From Gallionella sp. (GTDB lineage: Bacteria > Pseudomonadota > Gammaproteobacteria > Burkholderiales > Gallionellaceae), in NCBI GenBank assembly GCA_028714075.1, contig JAQTMZ010000004.1, positions 1-64,000 of the forward strand: 64,000 bases of DNA, written 5' to 3'. Position numbers and translations under genes: made by a program. The notes beneath the pieces were generated by a model that was not told the origin of the DNA, did not search any database, and saw only the letters and a program-made list of their open reading frames with translations. Numbering within the stretch: the first letter of the stretch is position 1; each line of letters starts with the position of its first letter. Positions 1,691 through 7,194 of the stretch are shown piece by piece.

Positions 1691-3022
1691 TCAGGACTTG
1701 AAGCACACCGTTACCCGCAACCCCTGTCCTTCGCTCACCGGCTGCATCTGCAAGGTCGCGTCATGTACTTCGGCAATCCGTTTGATGATGGATAGCCCGA
1801 GGCCGCTGCCGCTGGCCTGTGTGCCGATTGGGCGATAGAACCGCTCCAGCACTTTGTCCCGCTCCTGTTCCGGAATGCCCGGGCCGTTATCGCCCACCGA
1901 CAGGCAGGCCGCTCCCGGTTCATGGGTGACGCTTACCTGCACCGCTGTTCCGGGCGGGGTATGCCGTATCGAATTGTCGAGCAGGTTGCGCAGCAGTATC
2001 CGCAGCAGTCCCGGATTGCCGCGTACCGTGGCTTCGTCGCCCGCCAGCAATTCGAGTTGCACGCCTTTTTCCAGCGCGGCCGGCGCCAGCGCCGCAATGA
2101 TTTCGGAGGCGATGTCTCTGAGCTGGCACGGCTCCGCCATGGCGCGATCCAGCGTATCGACCCGCGCCAGCGTGAGCAACTGTTCGATCAGGTGGGCGGC
2201 GCGGTCGCAGCCGAGAATCGCGTTGTCGAGCGCATGGATGCGTTCGGTTTCTCCAACTGCGGCGCGCGCCACTTGCGCCTGCGCCTTGATCGCGGCCACC
2301 GGGGTGCGCAATTCATGCGCGGCATCGGCGGTAAAGCGCCGCTCTTTTTGCATGGATGCGTCGATGCGGACGAACAGCCGGTTGAGCCGCTCGATCAGCG
2401 GCACCACTTCGCGCGGCGCGGACGACGCATCCAGCGCGGCGAGGTTGTCCGGCTCGCGCTGCTCCACCTCGCGTGCCAGTTTGTCGAGCGGGCGCAAGCC
2501 GCGCATTATCGCGATCCACAGCAGCAGTGCCAGCAACGGCAGGGAAAACCACAGCGGCCGCAGCAGGTTGCCCGCGATGCCGCGCGCCAGTTTCTCGCGC
2601 ACGTCGGAGCGCTCCGCGACCTGGATCAGGTATTCGCCGGATTCGTCCCAGGTACTGAAGACGCGCCAGCGTTTTCCGTCGACGATGGTGTCGCTGAAGC
2701 CGCGCTCCTTGTTTGCCAGCGGCTGTTGCGGCGCGTTGGCGGAATGCAGGCGCAGTTGCTGCCCTTTCTCCCATACCTGAAACGCGACGCGGCGCGCATA
2801 TTTGTGCAGCAGCGGCGTGTGCTCGGTTTCGAGTTCATCGATCTCATGCGTTGCCTGGACGACCAGCAGCGCAGCGGCCTGCGCCAGATGCGCGTCCAGC
2901 ACCTCATCGAATTCTTCGCGCGCATCGAGGTAAGTGAAGGCGGTTGCGCCGAGCCAGACCAGCGTGATCGCCGTCAATGCCGGGATAAGTAGTCTTCGTT
3001 TGAGCGAGGCGGGTTGCGACAT
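1691..3022 (-). CDS. qseC: QseC-type sensor histidine kinase
   Basis: A 443-aa inner-membrane histidine kinase of the EnvZ/OmpR class. TM1 spans about residues 10-32, a periplasmic sensor about 33-152 and TM2 about 153-173. HAMP and the dimerisation domain follow, with the phosphoacceptor H236 in AAHELRTPVAA. The catalytic domain shows the N-box NLLDNSIRHT, G1 DNGPGIPE and G2 GSGLGLSII. The gene starts 1 nt after the response-regulator stop, so the two are co-translated. It is last in the SHP-DHC-cytochrome b561-qseB-qseC run, which suggests it controls that redox operon rather than a virulence function. The QseC subfamily call rests on general layout; the activating signal cannot be read. 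Confidence 0.85.
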   Translation of the reverse strand: MSQPASLKRRLLIPALTAITLVWLGATAFTYLDAREEFDEVLDAHLAQAAALLVVQATHEIDELETEHTPLLHKYARRVAFQVWEKGQQLRLHSANAPQQPLANKERGFSDTIVDGKRWRVFSTWDESGEYLIQVAERSDVREKLARGIAGNLLRPLWFSLPLLALLLWIAIMRGLRPLDKLAREVEQREPDNLAALDASSAPREVVPLIERLNRLFVRIDASMQKERRFTADAAHELRTPVAAIKAQAQVARAAVGETERIHALDNAILGCDRAAHLIEQLLTLARVDTLDRAMAEPCQLRDIASEIIAALAPAALEKGVQLELLAGDEATVRGNPGLLRILLRNLLDNSIRHTPPGTAVQVSVTHEPGAACLSVGDNGPGIPEQERDKVLERFYRPIGTQASGSGLGLSIIKRIAEVHDATLQMQPVSEGQGLRVTVCFKS

Positions 3023-3023
3023 T

Positions 3024-3707
3024 TTAAATGCCTTTATCGCGCGGCATCAGATAGCCGACGCCGCGTATGGTTTCGATCAGTTCGGGGGAAAGCTTGCGGC
3101 GCAGATGATGGATATGCACTTCCACCGCATTGCTTTCAATCTCATTGCCCCACGCGTAAAGCTGTTCTTCAAGCTTGGTGCGCGACAGCACTTTGCCCGC
3201 ATTGAGCATCAGGGCGTGCAGCAGCGCGAATTCCCTGGCCGAGAGCTCGACCGGCTTGTCGCGGTACAGCACGCGATGGGCGGCAGGGTCGAGCTTGATT
3301 TCGGCAACCTGCAACAACGGCTCGGTCTTCCCGCTGGCGCGGCGGATCAGCGCGCGCAGGCGTGCCGTCAGCTCGCCCATGTCGAACGGCTTGGCCAGAT
3401 AGTCGTCCGCGCCGGCATCCAGCCCCTTGATGCGGTCGTCCACCGTATCCATCGCGGTCAGGATCAGCACTGGCGTCTGTTTATTATTTATTTGGGCATT
3501 GCGGCTGCGCAGGCGGCGCAGCACCTCCAGCCCGGCAAGGCGCGGCAGCCCCAGATCCAGCACTACCGCCGCATAAGGCTCGGCGGCGAGCGCCTGTTCT
3601 GCCGAGATGCCGTCCTTCATCCAGTCCACGGCATAGCCGGACTGTTTCAAGCCAGCCTGAATCGCATCGCCCAGCAGGGCGTCGTCTTCGACCACTAACA
3701 CGCGCAT
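3024..3707 (-). CDS. qseB: QseB-type response regulator (OmpR/PhoB family)
   Basis: A 227-aa two-component regulator. The receiver domain has the acidic pair E7-D8-D9, the phosphoacceptor D51 (VVLDLGLPR) and the conserved K in LAKPFDMGEL. A winged-helix DNA-binding domain follows (about 125-222) with the VEVHIHHLRRKL recognition-helix region and ETIRGVGYLM hairpin. A short polar insert, NNKQTP, sits before the beta-4 strand. It is the cognate partner of the adjacent kinase. QseB/PmrA-type regulators bind tandem TTAAG-like half-sites; a perfect CTTAAG-N5-CTTAAG lies upstream of the SHP gene at 5535-5551, a likely target. Confidence 0.88.
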   Translation of the reverse strand: MRVLVVEDDALLGDAIQAGLKQSGYAVDWMKDGISAEQALAAEPYAAVVLDLGLPRLAGLEVLRRLRSRNAQINNKQTPVLILTAMDTVDDRIKGLDAGADDYLAKPFDMGELTARLRALIRRASGKTEPLLQVAEIKLDPAAHRVLYRDKPVELSAREFALLHALMLNAGKVLSRTKLEEQLYAWGNEIESNAVEVHIHHLRRKLSPELIETIRGVGYLMPRDKGI

Positions 3708-3735
3708 CGTTACACCCGTTTGAAAAAAGCACTAA

Positions 3736-3789
3736 GTCCGCAGATTACACAGATTTACGCAGATTGGTTAATCTGCGTAATCTGCGGAC
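3736..3789. repeat. Dispersed palindromic repeat, ccgcagattacgcagatt family (short copy)
   Basis: Left arm gtccgcagattac and acgcagatt face aatctgcgtaatctgcggac across a 4-nt centre, so the transcript could fold into a long hairpin. The same arms bound two longer elements at 14571-14700 and 31070-31197. This copy lies in the 97-nt gap between the cytochrome b561 gene and qseB, and could separate expression of the redox and regulator halves of the operon. Confidence 0.85.
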
Positions 3790-3804
3790 AAATGCCTTTT
3801 AGGT

Positions 3805-4470
3805 TTAATCGCTATCGTGCTGTCCGGCCTGCGTCGCATCTGCACCCGGCGTTGCCGCGCCGATGGACGGGTAGCCAGCCCAGAATGCCACGACCACAGC
3901 CAGCATTATGACACCCAGCCAGGCATAAGAGCGGCGAATGCCTTGATCCGGTTTGGCGGATTTGAAACCGGTAATCATGGAGCGTACCAGATTCTCGCGG
4001 TGCATCAAGCTGCTCACCACGACACCGGCGATGTGGATCAATACCACGGCCAGCATGCCATTGGATACGAACTCATGCAGTTCCTCCAGCGCATCGCCGC
4101 CGATATCCTGAAACACCATCACGCCGCTCACGCCGGAGGAGATGCCCAGTATTAGCAGCAGCCAGATCGCCACGCTGCCCACCGGGTTGTGCCCGACATA
4201 ATGCGCGGGTTTGCCTTTGGCCAGCGACAACAGGTAAGCGATAATTTCGCCGGGCTTGAACAGGAACGAACGGAACTGCGCATAGCGCGTGCCGAAAAAT
4301 CCCCACAGCAGCCTGAACGCGATCAGGCCCAGCAGGGTGTAGCCGAGCAGCACGTGAATATCGCGGTAACGCTCCGTCTCCGCCGTCAGGAATGCACCGA
4401 CGAAAGACAGCACCAGCAGCCAGTGAAAAACCCGCGTCGGTACATCCCAAACCAGAATACGTTGACTCAT
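3805..4470 (-). CDS. Cytochrome b561-type membrane dihaem protein of the SHP operon
   Basis: A 221-aa inner-membrane cytochrome b related to the b-type subunits of Ni/Fe hydrogenase and to cytochrome b561. About four hydrophobic helices are visible. Histidines suited to ligate two b-haems occur in RVFHWLL (H16), RDIHVLLGY and the HEFVSNGM...LIHIAGV...SLMHRENL segment. In SHP operons of other proteobacteria this subunit is thought to take electrons from quinol and pass them to the dihaem cytochrome c and then SHP. It starts 12 nt after the dihaem cytochrome gene. The C-terminus is an extra helix followed by a short polar tail. Confidence 0.88.
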   Translation of the reverse strand: MSQRILVWDVPTRVFHWLLVLSFVGAFLTAETERYRDIHVLLGYTLLGLIAFRLLWGFFGTRYAQFRSFLFKPGEIIAYLLSLAKGKPAHYVGHNPVGSVAIWLLLILGISSGVSGVMVFQDIGGDALEELHEFVSNGMLAVVLIHIAGVVVSSLMHRENLVRSMITGFKSAKPDQGIRRSYAWLGVIMLAVVVAFWAGYPSIGAATPGADATQAGQHDSD

Positions 4471-4482
4471 GATGGCCTCCTT

Positions 4483-5052
4483 TTACTTGGGTATTCTTAT
4501 GTCGCGCTCATTGAAATTGCCGCGCTCCGCCTGCGGGTGGCACGCCCCACAATTGGCCGGGCTCTTCACCTTCGGGTTCTTCCAGACGGCCGGATCGATT
4601 TCGTGGCCGTCGTGCTTGCGCTTGAACCAGGCTGTTTCGCTGATGCGCAACGGTGATGTCGAGGCGCTCCAGCGGTTGGAAGCATTGCTCACCAGAAATG
4701 CGGTGATTTCCTTGTTGTCCTGGGCATCCAGCGACGCATCCGAGCCGAAGTGCTTATCCAGGCCGTTCATGACCTTGCGCCATGATTCGGCGGGCAACAG
4801 CCCCGGCGCATAAGCGATATGGCAACTGGAACATTCCTGCTGGAACTTGGTGTTGATTTGCGCGGGCTGAACCGGCTTGCCGCGATTTTCGCCGCCGTAT
4901 TTTCCGCTGTGTTTCTCGCCTTTCTCGCCGTACTTTCCGCCGTATCTTTCATCGCGGTCGTCATCATCGGCCTGCGCGGCAGGTATCATTATGCCCATCG
5001 CCAGCAAGGCAACGGCCAGCATCCGGAAGTTTTTTTGGTTATATATCGACAT
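4483..5052 (-). CDS. Dihaem cytochrome c (DHC) of the SHP operon
   Basis: A 189-aa periplasmic c-type cytochrome. A signal peptide ends near residue 28 (AAQA-DDDD). Two haem-binding motifs are present: CSSCH (74-78) and CGACH (168-172). Between the signal and the first haem lies an unusual charged, Gly/Lys/Tyr-rich stretch (about 29-59) with repeated GGKYGEKG-like units. The gene sits between SHP and cytochrome b561 with 11-12 nt gaps, the arrangement known from SHP operons, where DHC is the proposed electron donor to SHP. Position and motif number support this identity; the N-terminal repeat looks like a lineage-specific insertion or flexible tether. Confidence 0.92.
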   Translation of the reverse strand: MSIYNQKNFRMLAVALLAMGIMIPAAQADDDDRDERYGGKYGEKGEKHSGKYGGENRGKPVQPAQINTKFQQECSSCHIAYAPGLLPAESWRKVMNGLDKHFGSDASLDAQDNKEITAFLVSNASNRWSASTSPLRISETAWFKRKHDGHEIDPAVWKNPKVKSPANCGACHPQAERGNFNERDIRIPK

Positions 5053-5063
5053 GGTAGTTCTCC

Positions 5064-5483
5064 TTATTTTTTAACAGTAAACAGATAGGCAAGTGTGTCA
5101 CCCTTTTCCTGCGGTGTGCAAGCGCGGCCAAGCACATCGTTGCAATTGCGCTTGAACCATTTTTCCACCTTTTTCGGGTTGGTGAAGCGCTCCGCATTGG
5201 CAGACGGGGCGATCGGCTCGACGACTTGACCGGTCTTGGCATGCTTGCCCTGTGCTGCGGGATTTTCGGTATGGCAAGAAGAGCAGCTCCATTCATAGCC
5301 GTGCTTCGTCTTGAAAAAACTCTCTCCGCGCGCCGCCGAAAAACCCTGAAAACCCGGTGTGCCAGCCGCTTCCTTGTGGATGGCAGCCAGTATCTCATCG
5401 GGGGTTTCCGCAAAAGCCGGTTGCGCCGCCAATCCGGCAACTGCCACAAGCGCCAAACATGATGTATGGAATATACGAAACAT
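5064..5483 (-). CDS. shp: Sphaeroides haem protein (SHP) homologue, DUF1924 cytochrome c
   Basis: A 139-aa periplasmic monohaem cytochrome c with a signal peptide of about 25 residues (cleavage near AFA-ETP). The haem motif is CSSCH (67-71). Downstream, RFTNPKKVEKWFKRNCND and GRACTPQEKGD match the remembered Rhodobacter sphaeroides SHP pattern. N113 aligns with the Asn that is the replaceable sixth haem ligand there, and C114/C122 align with its disulphide. SHP binds oxygen and nitric oxide and may act as an oxygenase or NO-handling protein. First gene of the operon; an AAGGAG ribosome site precedes the ATG, and a tandem CTTAAG box lies about 50 nt further upstream. Confidence 0.93.
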   Translation of the reverse strand: MFRIFHTSCLALVAVAGLAAQPAFAETPDEILAAIHKEAAGTPGFQGFSAARGESFFKTKHGYEWSCSSCHTENPAAQGKHAKTGQVVEPIAPSANAERFTNPKKVEKWFKRNCNDVLGRACTPQEKGDTLAYLFTVKK

Positions 5484-5534
5484 TTTTGATCTCCTTAAAA
5501 ATGAACTACGAGGCGTGCAGGATAAGAGGCCAAG

Positions 5535-5551
5535 CTTAAGGAATGCTTAAG
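5535..5551 (-). promoter_or_regulatory. CTTAAG-N5-CTTAAG tandem box, probable QseB/PmrA-type operator
   Basis: Two perfect CTTAAG hexamers (5535-5540 and 5546-5551) are separated by five bases, one helical turn centre to centre. This is the layout of the PmrA box, which QseB-family regulators can also recognise. It ends 10 nt before a TATCCT candidate -10 (5519-5524, minus strand) and about 50 nt before the SHP start codon. With qseBC at the end of the same gene run, direct autocontrol of the operon is a reasonable inference. Confidence 0.65.
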
Positions 5552-6390: not shown

Positions 6391-7194
6391 ATGGAACTGA
6401 AACTAAACAACCGGCAGGACTTGAAGGCGCGCGCATTGCTGCTGGGCGACCGGCTGGACTTGAAATCGTTCAAGATCGCCGATTGTCTGGCTACTACACC
6501 GTTGACGCTGGAGGTGGATAACAATGGCGGCATTGCCGTATTGTTTCGCTACGGCGTAGTAGTGCTGTTCGGTGTGCAGAGTCTGGATGAGGCACGATTC
6601 ATCGACTCTCTCAAATCGTTGCTGACCAACTCCTATCCGTCGCCAGAAATCGAGGAGATGGAAATACATAGCGGCAGAAAAGGTATCGGCGTACAAAGCG
6701 GCGCGGTTTCGCTGGACGACATTTCGCTGGAGAAATTGCAGGTTATTGCAGATGCCTTGAGCAAGAATCTGGTGCTCACGCTATATGAGAAAAAAGTCGC
6801 CAGTGAGTTTGATAAGATCGAACCGTTGGCGCAGGAACTGGCCACGCATGGCAAGGTGAGCGCCGGTTCCAAAAAACTGCTGTCCAAGATCGGTCACATG
6901 CTGCTGATCGAGCACCGCATGGTGGGCCGCGCCGAGATCGGCGACAAGCCGGAAACGCTGTGGGACTTCCCGCACCTCGAAGGGTTGTACGCCAGCATGG
7001 AGGACGAGTTCGAACTGAAGGAGCGGCAATCAGCACTGGATCGCAAACTGGGGCTGATCTCGGATACGGCACAAACACTGGCCGACGTGTGGGATAACAA
7101 GCAGCTGCATAAGCTCGAGTGGTATGTGATCGGGCTGATTCTGTTCGAGATCGTCCTCAGTCTGCATGACCGGATCAGCCAGTTTTTAGGTTAA
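6391..7194 (+). CDS. RMD1/DUF155 family protein
   Basis: A 267-aa protein matching the RMD1/YagE (DUF155) family, known from yeast mitochondria (Rmd1, Rmd8) and many bacteria. The typical layout is visible: an N-terminal domain with GGIAVLFRYGVVVLFG, a helical middle, and the family block ELKERQSALDRKLGLISDTAQTLADVWDN before one C-terminal hydrophobic helix (LEWYVIGLILFEIVLSLHD). It is probably anchored to the membrane by that helix. Function in bacteria is not established. No operon partner is evident. Confidence 0.85.
   Translation: MELKLNNRQDLKARALLLGDRLDLKSFKIADCLATTPLTLEVDNNGGIAVLFRYGVVVLFGVQSLDEARFIDSLKSLLTNSYPSPEIEEMEIHSGRKGIGVQSGAVSLDDISLEKLQVIADALSKNLVLTLYEKKVASEFDKIEPLAQELATHGKVSAGSKKLLSKIGHMLLIEHRMVGRAEIGDKPETLWDFPHLEGLYASMEDEFELKERQSALDRKLGLISDTAQTLADVWDNKQLHKLEWYVIGLILFEIVLSLHDRISQFLG

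Follow-up and report, generated by a model that had tools for sequence, protein, structure and literature searches.

What use does a bacterium have for a sphaeroides haem protein (SHP), and which signal turns its gene on? The question is raised by the first 64 kb of contig 4 (JAQTMZ010000004.1; this whole stretch is called the window) of a 2.83-Mb Gallionella sp. genome, where an shp gene stands together with two further cytochrome genes and the genes of a two-component system. The SHP of R. sphaeroides is reported to bind O2, nitric oxide (NO) and organic amines, and an NO dioxygenase activity has been claimed for it (PMC2909971); the NO dioxygenase paper appears among the references of PMC3820574. 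Among c-type haem proteins, SHP is described as the sole one with known O2 binding (PMC2909971). With a probability of about 70%, the window holds a five-gene, self-regulated SHP operon, in which a cytochrome chain would lead to SHP and the operon's own regulator would activate it through a PmrA/QseB-type box. The conserved box before QseBC-linked operons offers a handle on the role of SHP, as the inducing signal would point to function, and the lineages that keep SHP without box and sensor are natural contrasts.

The operon and the box upstream of shp

The features of the locus, in the direction of transcription, are as follows.

5535..5551, minus strand: PmrA/QseB-type box CTTAAG-CATTC-CTTAAG, a direct repeat with each half-site palindromic (pattern scan)
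5519..5524, minus strand: -10-like hexamer TATCCT, 10 nt downstream of the box
5064..5483, minus strand: shp, encoding SHP (DUF1924; 139 amino acids; Pfam and structure alignments)
4483..5052, minus strand: DHC, soluble-type dihaem cytochrome c (Pfam DHC, 7.5e-38; CSSCH at residues 74-78, CGACH at 168-172)
3805..4470, minus strand: cytB, cytochrome b561-type membrane cytochrome, the presumed quinol oxidant (PF01292, 9.6e-28)
3739..3786, no strand assigned: inverted repeat of a genome-wide REP-like element, forming a long hairpin between cytB and qseB
3024..3707, minus strand: OmpR-family response regulator, nearest to QseB and PmrA (domain and NCBIfam searches)
1691..3022, minus strand: sensor histidine kinase, nearest to QseC, with 2CSK_N (periplasmic), HisKA and HATPase_c domains (domain searches)

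All five genes lie on the minus strand in the order shp-DHC-cytB-qseB-qseC, and DHC and cytochrome b genes adjoin shp, the arrangement that defines an SHP electron-transfer operon. The preliminary description had claimed a complete operon of this kind with its own two-component system in a non-phototrophic betaproteobacterium, and all the genes were indeed found in the order given; its range, 3024..5483, holds shp, DHC, cytB and the regulator gene, but the sensor gene falls outside it. Records of Gallionella, Ferrigenium and Nitrotoga, Sideroxydans-type records and others further out show the same arrangement of five genes; as it is seen in many Gallionellaceae records, it is not a product of chance.

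DUF1924 is the sole Pfam domain of the shp product (135.8 bits against a cut-off of 22.5; E 6.7e-40). The protein has a single CXXCH haem motif, CSSCH at residues 67-71, and its initiator is its only Met, leaving none in mature SHP. Two solved relatives were found, cytochrome c'' (1e8e; E 9.4e-24), which scores better, and the R. sphaeroides SHP (1dw0 chain; E 1.8e-20); N113 falls on the His at residue 95 of the former and on residue 88 of the latter. In the ungapped C-terminal part of the alignment, N113, C114, C122 and W109 correspond to Asn88, Cys89, Cys97 and Trp84 of R. sphaeroides SHP, a protein for which PMC2909971 names Asn88, Trp84 and the C89-C97 disulphide. At the level of sequence, the proposed alignment to SHP structures thus upholds the features first listed for the protein (CSSCH, N113 at the place of the replaceable Asn, the C114/C122 pair) and adds W109; a Met or His at the sixth-ligand place, named beforehand as speaking against SHP identity, did not appear. 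The cytochrome c'' subgroup is marked by a His sixth ligand, where the window protein has Asn instead. When hits with identical C-terminal 100 residues were merged, 117 hits gave 98 distinct SHP genes, with Asn at this place in 92, His in 4 and an unreadable residue in 2. Judged by its sequence, the haem protein of the window is a true SHP, with Asn as predicted sixth ligand and C114/C122 as a predicted Cys pair. Its nearest named relatives belong to Gallionella and 'Candidatus Ferrigenium' records, with identities of up to 82-84% over the whole protein. The host itself is placed near Gallionella and Ferrigenium.

The partner DHC matches solved DHC structures at E 7e-27 to 7e-24 (7.2e-27 for 2fw5). 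Between its signal peptide and first haem motif, at about residues 29-59, lies a charged stretch that repeats Gly, Lys and Tyr.

The box is located 51 nt upstream of the shp start codon. It matches the PmrA consensus, (C/T)TTAA(G/T)-N5-(C/T)TTAA(G/T) (PMC10729948), with 0 mismatches and at promoter distance, as a predicted site only, and CTTAAG half-sites five bases apart occur in verified PmrA boxes (PMC3973317, PMC10729948). At no more than one mismatch the strict form occurs once in the 64-kb window, against an expectation of 0.03, and CTTAAG-N5-CTTAAG has a single occurrence in the whole genome. Many relatives that carry the box have hexamers resembling TATCCT at roughly equal spacing; a sigma-70 scan did not return TATCCT among its results, and a -35 consensus is absent. 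Four further box sites of a looser form occur in the same genome and were rejected as marks of other regulon members, none of them being at the shp distance before an evident same-strand gene start, as judged from mechanically called open reading frames.

Association of the box with QseBC among SHP loci

Of 61 relatives, 33 contain DUF1924; in a class-wide sample of 274 genomes it turned up in 43 (42 above the cut-off). Linkage to QseBC was assigned with a QseB limit of 300 bits, chosen after the scores had been seen, and 44 genes were counted as linked, 43 of them with upstream DNA in range. The box was present with at most one mismatch in 35 of these 43, in exact form in 24. It was found before none of the 32 shp genes without QseBC and none of the three with another regulator, and before 4 of 18 on contigs too short for linkage to be judged. 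Fisher's test for 35/43 against 0/32 gave p = 5e-14, a value uncorrected for kinship, and in shuffled upstream DNA the box at one mismatch or fewer arose by chance at 0.8% per locus. Some assignments are doubtful: L111, filed as linked at 301 bits, has sisters at 299 that were not and a sensor scoring only 272, and was probably wrongly filed, and L009 was filed as unresolved, yet its contig (G033) carries a 2CSK_N match downstream. The operon start is without a box in two regulator-linked SHP clusters of lower score, L205 (G161) and L209 (G264 C43).

This association also bears on the idea that the two-component system is a passenger, the box serving an autoregulated QseBC pair by read-through while SHP is a housekeeping protein under another regulator. 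The idea would fit the QseBC pairs unlinked to SHP (G095, G043), where the box lies upstream of qseB, as well as the SHP operons lacking both QseBC and box, which are common (32 of 98), and the hairpin that parts cytB from qseB in the window. Against it, the box of linked operons stands before shp or cytB, two to three genes upstream of qseB, and box and QseBC are jointly absent from several separate branches of the SHP tree. In that tree a large clade comprises 60 rows, and the genes without box and QseBC form several branches inside it; at starred forks L057 and L085 fall together with rows that bear the box, and the backbone is unresolved. Read in this way, the tree would imply three to five joint losses of box and QseBC, or gains elsewhere. 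The passenger explanation is regarded as unlikely.

Class-level searches yielded six further operons with SHP and QseBC. In five of them the box, with at most one mismatch, precedes the first gene at a gap of 45-55 nt, this gene being shp in G134 and G120 and cytB in G232, G264 and G135. G030 has a qseB divergent from cytB-shp-DHC, with the box in the stretch between qseB and cytB. Outside these operons, the qseB gene of E. coli K-12 has an upstream box with one mismatch and E. coli pmrR a perfect one; the box was absent from the E. coli cpx/fieF stretch that was scanned. From its place before the first cytochrome gene and before qseB in SHP-less pairs, it follows that the box belongs to the regulator family and has been placed ahead of the first cytochrome gene.

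Other genes were also seen behind the box. In G036 (L154 2501-5971) the box is followed by an ordinary Cytochrom_C protein in SHP's place, then by DHC, qseB and qseC, and the operon lacks SHP. In G022 an SHP-like match with one in-frame TAG follows a perfect box (L155, about 3953-4392). In G012 and G033 the box precedes a gene for a 104-residue secreted protein without a Pfam match (L153 4021-4400, L157 3828-4208); homologues of this protein occur in 3 of the 61 genomes, with no match in the window's genome.

Several observations speak against the view that the operon's own regulator controls it through the box. Eight of the 43 linked genes, including those of G046 (L035) and L114, have no box at one mismatch or fewer, G273 has an SHP operon with QseBC and no box, and a single clade dominates among the linked genes. 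G134 is a weak case, with eight other one-mismatch boxes in the same 6.5 kb. The Gallionella sp. genome as a whole shows no enrichment of the looser consensus, with five places and six strand-hits against eight for the reversed control. For E. coli QseB, PMC10729948 gives the consensus G(C/T)(G/A)ACAAT(A/T)A-N4-TT, which differs from the window box, and the DNA-binding part of the regulator is 50% identical to E. coli QseB against 37% to PmrA/BasR. As to coupling within the operon, the 96-nt gap between cytB and qseB contains a predicted hairpin of -47.4 kcal/mol, which belongs to a REP-like element whose 17-base core has 24 exact copies in the genome and 57 with up to one mismatch (reversed control, 0), and which may loosen or break the coupling of qseBC to the cytochrome genes in this strain. 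The comparison supports a model in which the regulator would control the operon directly and in a self-amplifying manner. The box ahead of the first gene lends indirect support to the linkage of the operon genes, which was expected to show in transcription.

The window's genome has three DUF1924 copies. The other two (L004 and L005, on contigs 9 and 10) are nearly identical to each other, stand on a branch of their own in the tree and lack both QseBC and box; one has behind it a DHC that is doubled in a single reading frame (four CXXCH), then cytB, the other a single DHC, and the copy without the doubled DHC has an FGE-sulfatase-like gene before it. At QseBC-less SHP loci, a membrane protein of about 200-250 residues with no Pfam family above cut-off was seen in 12 of 30 cases (for instance L053 10624-11820) and at linked loci in 0 of 37; in L050, L053 and L058 it sits between cytB and a second DHC. 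No constant neighbours were found beyond the five genes; ruvB-tol-pal-que genes lie upstream at just 9 of the 37 QseBC loci. Downstream of qseC in the window lies a gene for a ferredoxin/adrenodoxin-type NADP reductase-like flavoprotein (183-1556), which is not conserved with the operon and was rejected as a member, the window's own copy being the only one among 115 loci searched. Upstream of the operon, on the plus strand, is a DUF155 gene of the RMND1/Sif2-Sif3 family (6391-7194).

Sensor, signal and proposed function

The names of the two regulatory proteins need some latitude. Under the NCBIfam equivalog cut-offs (QseC NF007664, 475 bits; QseB NF007663, 345; PmrA NF007928, 330), the sensor reaches 300 bits for QseC, and the regulator 243.5 for QseB and 242.4 for PmrA, so that neither is an equivalog of these families. 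The regulator shares 48% identity with E. coli QseB and 45% with BasR (PmrA). The QseB/QseC-type label proposed at the outset fits as the nearest curated name, but the equivalog cut-offs are missed and 'QseC-type' is a loose term.

The periplasmic domain of the sensor has conserved acidic and His residues. Among 44 mixed comparators, mostly other 2CSK_N kinases, His is found at positions 45, 68, 73 and 93 in 7%, 0%, 0% and 0%, and by this comparison the four His seemed confined to SHP-linked sensors. Among 25 closer QseC relatives unlinked to SHP, H73 is present in 17 and H93 in 11, H45 in 1 and H68 in 2, and among four SHP-linked sensors of other genera H45 is absent from two, H68 from three and H93 from two. 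As the closer comparators share part of the conserved residues, no metal site is claimed; the signature H45, H68, H73, H93 was dropped as such and kept only as a lineage-specific lead. Arg142 is invariant across 36 aligned SHP-linked sensors. It is probably the counterpart of R150 in the QseC of nontypeable Haemophilus influenzae (NTHi), a correspondence drawn without an alignment to the NTHi protein; a Y149G/R150T double change in NTHi QseC is reported to abolish the response to Fe2+ (PMC12737762).

As a leading guess, the signal would be a divalent metal, Fe(II) or another, or its redox consequences, rather than a catecholamine. A metal is favoured because of three indirect hints: the iron report on NTHi qseBC, the rise of an SHP cluster of A. 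vinosum on pyrite and the FieF-like neighbours of some SHP genes. According to a review, FeCl2 induces NTHi qseBC, ZnCl2 does so less strongly and epinephrine does not (PMC12737762). In A. vinosum on pyrite, Alvin_0020-0026, in which Alvin_0022 is a DUF1924 gene, rise strongly together with the FieF gene Alvin_0019 (PMC11267869); the sensor of this cluster is of another class, SK1 (PMC2909971). FieF-like metal exporter genes adjoin SHP copies upstream (L096 7913-8875, L098 7376-8827) that are related to the second and third SHP of the window's genome; they occur at 5 of 115 loci, four of them distinct, and at none of the QseBC-linked ones.

The catecholamine-like signal suggested in the preliminary description has no support in the data. 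A sensor that answers quorum or catecholamine-like signals, as reported for E. coli QseC, with an SHP that destroys or modifies the amine signal, as Meyer et al. (2010; PMC2909971) considered possible, would suit both the nearest curated name of the sensor and the organic amine binding noted in the same paper. It is nonetheless highly improbable, given the distance of the sensor from the QseC cut-off, the epinephrine result in NTHi and the free-living habit of the Gallionellaceae hosts.

Under the favoured reading of a self-regulated operon, electrons would pass from quinol to the membrane cytochrome b561, to the periplasmic dihaem cytochrome c and on to SHP, a path suggested by the protein families. 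On reduction of SHP the Asn113 ligand would leave the haem, so that O2 or NO could bind, and the most likely chemistry would be NO removal by dioxygenation, or removal of another small reactive ligand. The QseB-like regulator would bind the CTTAAG-N5-CTTAAG box in an activator position over the -35 region, as comparative sequence evidence suggests, and on stimulation of the periplasmic sensor it would turn on the cytochromes and itself, amplifying its own production. NO removal would be a sensible use of SHP in Fe(II)- and nitrite-oxidising hosts.

A chain that serves Fe(II) or other extracellular electron transfer, without ligand chemistry at SHP, has been weighed as well. It draws on the pyrite response, in which Alvin_0022 is up by log2 7.1 together with dihaem cytochrome and b561 genes (PMC11267869), and on the ordinary Cytochrom_C protein that replaces SHP before DHC-QseBC in G036. 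The pyrite case involves the different SK1 sensor class, however, and the open haem site with its conserved Asn and Trp would be unneeded for plain electron transfer. The same operon is also carried by Nitrotoga, which are nitrite oxidisers. On balance this chain is not the expected function.

A broader proposal is put forward only tentatively, and is doubtful in its full form. In Gallionellaceae and some other beta- and gammaproteobacteria, SHP might be the output of a dedicated, self-amplifying switch responsive to Fe(II) or another metal, made of a sensor of the QseC family, a QseB-like regulator and, in each genome, a single PmrA-type box ahead of the cytochrome operon; SHP might then be a periplasmic guard against the NO or O2 products of Fe(II) meeting nitrite or oxygen.

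Relation to known systems

The preliminary description saw in the full unit with a QseC-type sensor a route to the signal and function of SHP. The unit is no novelty: operons of the same kind were published in 2010, when Meyer et al. described 12 SHP operons with a QseC-homologous sensor, SK2 (PMC2909971). The window shares with these SK2 SHP/DHC/cytochrome b operons the cytochromes, the class of sensor and regulator, and the Asn ligand with the Cys pair. The part of that paper that was covered names neither Gallionella nor QseB and describes no regulator box; one of its two 'promoter' mentions refers to a divergent promoter (PMC2909971). No report of the box was found in the literature on SHP, DUF1924 or Gallionella with these genes, where coverage of subscription journals is thin and its absence is not proof. 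What the present analysis adds is the box before SHP operons and the association of this box with QseBC. The locus is judged a genuine SHP operon, ordinary in kind, in a relative of the iron bacteria, with a new and testable regulatory element.

The R. sphaeroides operon shares the Asn88, Cys89-Cys97 and Trp84 places and the DHC partner; as described in PMC2909971, it has no regulator genes and its cytB is fused to a membrane DHC, whereas in the window cytB stands as a gene of its own and a two-component system is present. Cytochrome c'' of Methylophilus methylotrophus (1e8e) is the top-scoring solved relative of the window SHP and differs from it in having His, not Asn, at the sixth-ligand place. 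We know of no SHP in the QseBC/FirRS system of Haemophilus influenzae. What that system has in common with the window is a QseC-family sensor, and a response to ferrous iron is reported there (PMC12737762). Among enteric PmrA and QseB boxes, verified PmrA boxes have the same CTTAAG half-sites and five-base spacing as the box upstream of shp; in the window, by contrast, the target is a cytochrome operon, and the regulator is slightly nearer to QseB than to PmrA.

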